Positions 43,680 through 45,641 of a DNA stretch of 64,000 nt are shown here, piece after piece. A model generated the notes under the pieces. The model had not been told where the DNA came from and made no database searches. It saw only the letters and a program-made list of their open reading frames with translations. Source of the DNA: Synergistaceae bacterium. Lineage in GTDB: Bacteria > Synergistota > Synergistia > Synergistales > Aminobacteriaceae. The DNA is taken from NCBI GenBank assembly GCA_017450125.1, contig JAFSWZ010000017.1, forward strand, positions 62,001-126,000, given 5' to 3'. Each line of letters starts with the position of its first letter. Within the stretch, counting starts at the first letter, position 1. The position numbers and the translations under genes were made by a program.

Positions 43680-43715
43680 CGCAGGCTTGGGAGAAGTTCA
43701 CCGGCCTGCGTTTTT
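43680..43715 (+). terminator. Rho-independent terminator of gltX
   Basis: CGCAGGC (43680-43686) pairs with GCCTGCG (43704-43710), followed by TTTTT on the plus strand, 7 bp after the gltX stop. The minus-strand RM remnant ends within it. Confidence 0.85.
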
Positions 43716-44633
43716 CTTCTCAAGCTCTTTGCCGTACAGCGTGAAGAGTTCCGCCGCAATGTCCTCCTCGCTGATTCCCTTCGGCCAGCCGTAAGCCTCA
43801 ATCACTGCCGCATCATTCTCCTGATGTGCCCGCCTCAAGTCCTGCGGCATACTCACTTCATCATAGAGATCCGCAAACGTGCACTCGGGGTGTTTTGCGC
43901 GCGCGTCAAGGATTGCCTGCCCGGTCAGCTCAATTTTGCGCGTCTGGAGCGGTGAAGACATCGGCCATATGAACGTGTTGTACACAATCGTGCTGCTGTA
44001 GCGGTAATCCACGCGTAGCCGTCCGCAGACCCTGCGCATCCAGCTCATGTGTGCGCTCGAGGTCAGAACCCCGAAGTGGTAGGGCGTTGCGTTGGGCAGG
44101 GAGAAAGCGGCGTTGGTTACTATTACATCAGGAGAGACATAGCCCATCGGGACATACATTCTTTCCTTCGAAGAATGACAAGGAATCAGCAGATAGTTCG
44201 TTGTCGGCTGCCTATGGCCTTGAAAGAGGTGGGGTGTCTCCGCGCTCTTCCGCGTTCCTTCGTCCGTGCTGGCAAGGCGAAATTCTTTGACCCTCTTCAC
44301 CCGTTCATGCAGAATCTTTGACCTCTTTATGTCAGCAGGGGAAGCATCTACCAGCCAGAAGCAGTAACGCTCTATCCCTTGAATGAACTCTTTAGAGCCG
44401 TATACTCTCCTGATGAATTTCTCGAGGCCGGGTTCTTTCTTGAGCACAGCGTCTCGTTCTTCAGGAGTCATGAAGAGGTTTCCGCCGTCAGCAGGCTTGC
44501 TTCCGTATACCATTCTGTGAACTGTCCGGCATCTGCAGAACCACTCAGCGGCTCCCTCGTCGCCGAAAGCGTATTCTTCTCCCGTGTTGTCGAAGCTGAC
44601 CGTCCACACCGGGCCTGTGTACCATTCCGCCAC
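43698..44633 (-). pseudogene. C-terminal remnant of an MmeI-type DNA methyltransferase
   Basis: A 311-residue ORF resembling only the last third of type IIL/MmeI-like restriction-modification proteins, i.e. target-recognition and C-terminal regions: SKPADGGNLFMTPEERDAV, IRRVYGSKEFIQGIERYCFWL, and LTSSAHMSWMRRVCGRL followed by STIVYNTFIWP. The ATPase/methylase part with the SAM and catalytic motifs (NPPY) is absent; full-length members are about 900 residues. It sits against the gltX terminator. Most likely a decayed remnant of a defence gene; a stand-alone specificity role is less likely. Confidence 0.65.
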
Positions 44634-44697: not shown

Positions 44698-45641
44698 CTA
44701 AATCTGTATGGCCGCATCAACCATGTTTGAGGTGTCCGTGCCGTTGCAGTACCGGCAGGCTTCCATGTATCGCGGAAAACAGCAGTACCTCATGAGTGCC
44801 TTCCTGCGCTCAGAAGCATTCTTGTAGTCCCCGAGCACGAGATAATCTCCCTCACCTGCAGTGAAGCCCTGAATTTCCGGCGCGTTGTTCCCGCGTGAAC
44901 ATCTTGCGAGCTGTCCCCTCTCGAGCGTCAGGCATCCCTTGAACGCACAAGACTCGTAGCGTCTCCTGAGAGCCCGGCCGTCAACTGCATCATAATCACC
45001 GGTATTCACGCCGCCGCAGTTGAACCAGCGTCCGTTTTCGCCGGCAAACAGGTACATTCTGTAGTGTATTTCGTGCTCTTGAAGGAATGAGACAAGCTGA
45101 CGGGTTTTGTGGGGTGTAATGTTGTAGTCGCTTATCCTGACGTTTACGCCGTTTGACTTGATGATGGAGGCAGGCTCATCATTGGGAAGGATCGTACCGT
45201 TAGTTGCAATGTCTATATCAGTAATAGTACCCCCCCCCCCATGCGTAATTCACGCAAAAACTGTATGAGTTTCCCGAGCTCAGAATACAGGAAGGGTTCG
45301 CCGCCCTGAATCTGTACTATACGGATGCTGTCTACGCTCTCCGCAAGCATGGTCATCCATCCGCTGAGTTCCTCAAAGCTGTAACGCATGAACTTTGAGG
45401 GTGAATATGGCGCGAAATTCCCGCAGTCCCGGCACTTGTAGCTGCAGGCTTGGCCGGTGCTGATTACCAGATTGCTGATTCGGAATGGGATAACGCGGCT
45501 GACCGTGAGAAGATACTTCAGGCTTCTTGCTGCCTTGCTCCATCTCACGCAACGGTAAATCTTTCTGGCCGAATCATGAAGCCCGTGAATGTGCGTTACA
45601 CGTTCAACATTCTTCAGCATTGAAGATAAATGTTTGGGCAC
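44698..45641 (-). pseudogene. Radical SAM protein split at a homopolymeric G11 tract
   Basis: The minus strand encodes a radical SAM protein in two frames. The first part (from 45641) has the cluster motif ACSYKCRDCGNFAPYSP (C-x3-C-x2-C) and QGGEPFLYSELGKLI. After LRELRM a run of 11 G (45240-45230) shifts the frame, and the protein ends after GGGVLLLI (142 residues). In the next frame, open through the tract, the expected continuation follows: GTITDIDIATNGTILPNDE and a Cys-rich C-terminus (CAFKGCLTLERGQLARC, RYCCFPRYMEACRYC) to 44698. Tract lengths of 9 or 12 G would restore about 314 residues. The family resembles radical SAM/SPASM enzymes of surface-glycan clusters. It may be an on/off switch or a sequencing error in the tract. 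Confidence 0.8.
45230..45240. repeat. Homopolymer of 11 C (11 G on the coding strand)
   Basis: The tract lies within the radical SAM coding region, immediately after codons for LRELRM. Slippage of one base changes whether the full protein is made. Confidence 0.95.

Follow-up and report, generated by a model that had tools for sequence, protein, structure and literature searches.

Radical SAM locus and its poly-G tract

A run of 11 G on the minus (coding) strand, read as C11 on the plus strand, splits a radical SAM gene into two open frames (Table 1). We refer to the whole analysed stretch of DNA, 64 kb in length, as the window. The N-terminal ORF opens with a GTG codon at 45641, encodes 142 aa and ends in ...LRELRMGGGVLLLI-stop shortly past the tract, while 176 codons of the C-terminal half stay open in a different frame, ending at 44698. 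An initial sequence-only reading of this DNA had described an 11-G interruption of a radical SAM gene with intact halves and Cys motifs on both sides. We located the tract and the second half in its other frame as described, with CSYKCRDC (CxxxCxxC) and GGEPF (GGE) ahead of the tract and CAFKGC, ARCSR and ACRYC behind it. The frame arithmetic is also correct in that nine or twelve G would restore a single reading frame.

The tract is the sole G/C run longer than 6 bases in the window. Three matches to G9 were seen, which are overlapping positions within this one run, against a mean of 0.35 in shuffles of the window, and that count was reached in 1 of 100 shuffles. Both the shuffles and the run-length counts show a repeat tract inside a coding frame that is longer than chance predicts. 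Beside the gene, on the minus strand at 43698–44633, lies an ORF that matches only the MmeI target-recognition and C-terminal domains and resembles a truncated type IIG restriction gene.

Table 1 Features of the radical SAM locus (window coordinates).
Feature	Position	Strand	Evidence
N-terminal half, radical SAM gene	45241..45641	-	GTG start, CxxxCxxC and GGE; 50% identity to G032 homolog
17-nt flanking motif TTGCGTGAATTACGCAT	45241..45257	- (G strand)	Overlaps N-half codons; scores 6.7 in leave-one-out (95% shuffle threshold 5.27)
G11 frame-shifting tract	45230..45240	-	Same-site tract in G061 (G10) and G032 (G9); absent from G064
C-terminal half, Cys-rich region, out of frame at G11	44698..45229	-	56% identity to G032 homolog; dN/dS ~0.12 vs G061

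Orthologs retain the tract site and both halves

Close homologs turned up in only a handful of genomes, all from the window's genus. Those with named records are goat gut metagenome assemblies, each labelled Synergistaceae bacterium. When the tract was sought in these relatives, it was found at the same site with other lengths in G061 (locus L144) and G032 (locus L145), and both orthologs are out of frame. The G061 ortholog is syntenic with the window gene, adjoined as in the window by a DUF1275 gene and a large helicase-like gene. A third homolog, in G064 (locus L146), has no tract and runs in a single continuous frame. The sequence-only reading had set against phase variation the case of tractless relatives with further disabling mutations; the tractless G064 frame is intact.

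The tract site is therefore shared by orthologs at 50–56% protein identity that differ in tract length (G11, G10 and G9). The identities to the G032 homolog are taken from protein alignments, in which the first G032 residue of the N half was written as M. Between the window's genome (G000) and G061, NG86 dN/dS is ~0.29 for the N half and ~0.12 for the C half, so the part that lies out of frame is still selected as protein. The tract-bearing orthologs of the window gene are nevertheless OFF in 3/3 assemblies and most genomes of the genus lack the gene, as would be expected if the tract were a disabling frameshift in a decaying pseudogene. We regard such decay as improbable, since the out-of-frame half is under this constraint and carries no other disabling change, and the tract site has been retained across orthologs so far diverged. 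Selection on the C half of a gene that is out of frame in three species would also be accounted for by constitutive expression, in which slippage of the RNA polymerase or the ribosome on the tract yields the full protein with no heritable switch. This too is improbable, because tract lengths vary among the orthologs and because promoter-like tracts also occur between genes, where frame slippage is meaningless.

The named relatives are metagenome assemblies, in which tract lengths are possibly inexact, and an assembly or sequencing error in the homopolymer of an intact gene has to be weighed. We consider it extremely unlikely: independent genomes from other species share the long G tract at this position, and the window's genome holds 36 tracts of 10–14 bases, with none of 7–9 in the DNA examined and a flanking motif in common. 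An error could alter a length by one or two, yet could not produce this pattern. The same-site out-of-frame runs in two species, the intact tractless gene in a third and the purifying selection on the C half together favor phase variation over decay or assembly error. The phase-variation reading first made from the window is thus strengthened, as the tract is kept with differing lengths and both halves are conserved. Viral contigs searched with the C half yielded no relatives.

A second radical SAM ortholog group (L151, L152 and L153), from three species, behaves alike. Its shared tract site lies just ahead of the cluster motif and reads G10 in G026, G9 in G061 and G8 in G005; the frame across the tract is open in G026 and G061 and closed in G005.

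A putative surface-sugar-modifying enzyme

The N half gives a match to Pfam PF04055 (E 3.8e-5) that falls below the curated cut-off, and its matches to other radical SAM models are weak. Membership of the superfamily is indicated by CxxxCxxC and GGE in the N-terminal barrel, and the fold of the G064 homolog agrees. A sequence search of the PDB gave one weak match for the N half and nothing for the C half. The C half has conserved Cys residues, as would suit a twitch domain with one auxiliary cluster; the NCBIfam twitch score is far below cut-off, and pLDDT is low in the C half.

The best solved-structure matches of the G064 homolog are SpeY (E 3e-10) and BtrN (E 2e-4), twitch radical SAM dehydrogenases that act on sugar or aminocyclitol alcohols. 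The likeness extends to a Cys-rich C-terminal region, although identity is ~20% or less, the TM-score to SpeY is ~0.55 and the C-terminal model is of low confidence. This resemblance makes surface-sugar modification a suitable role for the enzyme. The intact G064 homolog also neighbors a LicD/cholinephosphotransferase-like gene, a cytidylyltransferase-like gene (the latter named from sequence only) and an asparagine-synthase-like gene; another gene of this last type bears a tract at C39:79997 of the window's genome. These neighbors and the other tract genes fit the earlier guess of surface modification. Judged from neighborhood and fold, and with moderate confidence in the structure model, the window enzyme probably modifies a surface sugar.

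Poly-G tracts across the genome and genus

A whole-genome search of the window's genome (2.16 Mb, 43 contigs) returned 36 G-runs of at least 9, all of them 10–14 long. G/C runs number 52 at length 6, 0 at 7–9 and 36 at 10–14 within 395 kb, which is DNA chosen around the tracts plus the window, so that the zero at 7–8 applies to that DNA and is not a whole-genome count. Genomes of the genus hold 2–59 runs of at least 9 G each and those of other genera of the order 0–24; in G057, a complete GC-rich genome from one of these other genera, the runs are mostly exactly 9 long. In G025, of the window's genus, more than 40 tracts are mostly exactly 9 G, with GGG then TAA or TAN and A/T-rich DNA, and with no TACGTA motif upstream.

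Most of the tracts fall in genes for surface polysaccharides, pilin-like or giant surface proteins, and restriction. The tract genes include GT2, GT92, GT4, Caps_synth, EpsG, a weak Wzy match, two pyruvyl transferases and a second radical SAM protein. Others encode an epimerase, a UDP-sugar dehydrogenase, an FkbM methyltransferase, two asparagine-synthase-like proteins, two SDR proteins, KAS III, an NRPS condensation domain, HsdS, a pilin-like protein and two giant FG-GAP proteins. An automatic ON/OFF tally of the 36 tract genes was discarded, as it misjudged at least one, an FAD-oxidoreductase gene that is off once its true N-terminal frame is followed. Genes for MutS and MutL are present with long open frames, so a loss of these mismatch-repair genes does not explain the abundance of tracts.

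Tracts also lie between genes, where the C strand reads TTGACA, then the C tract, then TATAAT, with 19–21 nt between the boxes as counted by hand in about ten examples. Intergenic examples with TTGACA-like and TATAAT-like boxes include L078:5738 (G000:C10:9737), L135 and L066. By their sequence, the intergenic tracts are probably phase-variable promoters and form a second tract type.

A near-palindromic motif adjoins most tracts

A degenerate near-palindrome of 17 nt (about TACGTAAWTTACGTAC), with the consensus TACGTAAATTTACGGAC in the window's genome, sits immediately upstream of most tracts on the G strand. Its conserved letters include the TACG/CGTA arms and the central A/T, its strand follows the G whichever strand codes, and it is scarce elsewhere in the genome. 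In leave-one-out scoring, 67% of the tracts of the window's genome exceed the 95% threshold of shuffled flanks, against 5% in shuffles, which preserve base composition and not dinucleotides; none of the control stretches further upstream of these tracts does so. Short G-runs almost never have the motif ahead of them: the mean score is ~-3.4 before G-runs of 3–5 versus 8.6 before runs of at least 10, on which the motif model was trained, so the leave-one-out figure is the fair measure. Searching the whole genome for a 17-mer form with up to 3 mismatches gave nine matches, seven of which touch a G tract or come within one base of it. The 331 kb of tract regions contain TACGTA 50 times, in 18 cases within 30 nt of a tract.

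The motif recurs within the genus, where 86 of 218 tracts pooled from eleven other genomes score above threshold and ~11 are expected. G025 passes at 1 of 32 tracts, and in the GC-rich genus of G057 the motif is absent, with 0 of 24 above threshold. The motif is also present at four tracts with C on the coding strand (entries 2, 19, 23 and 29), two of them with firm gene calls (entry 19, HsdS; entry 23, a glycosyltransferase). A cause at the level of codons or protein was rejected, since the motif is read in two codon frames (R-N/K type and Y-V type), beside intergenic tracts and in C-reading genes.

The FAD-oxidoreductase family bears on how motif and tract came to lie together. Its four orthologs with the tract have 2 mismatches to the motif consensus in 16 nt, whereas among the seven without it one has 3 mismatches and six have 4–10 (Fisher p 0.015, with relatedness uncorrected and the cut chosen post hoc). 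Native codons have been replaced by the motif through substitution with hardly any change in length, so here motif and tract arose in place. The same motif beside tracts of unrelated genes could instead mean that the two spread jointly as a small mobile cassette, and the tract-bearing radical SAM orthologs are a few residues longer at that point than the tractless homolog. We rejected this origin for the FAD-oxidoreductase case on account of the substitutions. The copies are also degenerate, with only ~17 nt and the tract in common, and as a general account a cassette, already weakened, is very improbable.

The motif may be a protein-binding site that acts on tract stability, an easily melted aid to slippage or an antisense -10 element, and tract mutation may have nothing to do with its role. 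The antisense reading, in which the C tract is the spacer of a promoter and the motif does not act on tract mutation, draws on the box layout of the intergenic tracts and on a TAAATT-like word at nearly equal distance from the coding tracts. We think it rather unlikely, as the coding tracts have no TTGACA-like box past them and the arms of the motif are conserved as well as its central A/T. More tentatively, and as less likely than not, we propose that the near-palindrome is the recognition site of a dedicated factor that creates, maintains or destabilizes G tracts at chosen genes, in which case phase variation in this genus would be directed and not plain polymerase slippage.

Model and relation to known systems

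We assign a probability of roughly 80% to a joint reading of the locus as a translational phase-variation switch in a genus-wide poly-G surface-gene set, with a motif that arose in place. Slippage at the G tract would bring the second half of a putative twitch-type radical SAM enzyme into or out of frame as tract length switches in cells. The G11 state would be OFF, giving a 142-aa stub that lacks the Cys-rich C terminus, and an in-frame length would yield the complete, selected protein; this toggling is deduced from the frames. The cis motif on the G strand would have arisen in place probably through an effect on tract instability or maintenance. That the 36 runs mostly lie beside one motif suggests that switching is organized as a system, one that would be new for this bacterial group.

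Most work on simple-repeat phase variation concerns a small number of host-adapted pathogens, and the usual explanation invokes nothing beyond the repeat. Its range would be extended by a gut commensal genus in which dozens of surface genes carry putative poly-G switches. A cis motif evolving beside tracts while MutS and MutL are kept would make it testable whether flanking DNA programs the site and rate of tract mutation.

The nearest precedent is the Campylobacter phasomes, radical SAM genes included. Each genome there likewise carries dozens of tracts, most of which fall within ORFs and have G on the coding strand, and the length peak is narrow (PMC6321876); the phase-variable list of C. 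fetus in the same PhasomeIt study includes radical SAM, methyltransferase and SDR genes. Campylobacter differs in phylum and in its length peak, which is 9–10 there and 10–14 here, and the word 'motif' occurs 0 times in that paper (PMC6321876). Neisseria meningitidis combines frame-switching tracts with a promoter-spacer tract, the poly-G of the porA promoter, whose layout the intergenic tracts described here share (PMC5084427, PMC3639595). In the consulted parts of those two sources, by contrast, tract context is analyzed for start codons and domains, and no common flanking motif was found (PMC5084427, PMC3639595). A limited search of the open-access literature returned neither poly-G phase variation in Synergistota nor a common flanking motif at such tracts.

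Further tract-bearing genes in the window's genome

Four adjoining surface-glycan genes at L084:6058-9056 (G000:C23:62058-65056) each contain a tract of G11–G13; at least two are GT2 and one is Wzy-like. Elsewhere, a 13-base tract at L087:5844 (G000:C25:127343) lies inside an HsdS (type I restriction specificity) gene and breaks it, so the DNA methylation pattern may switch as well.
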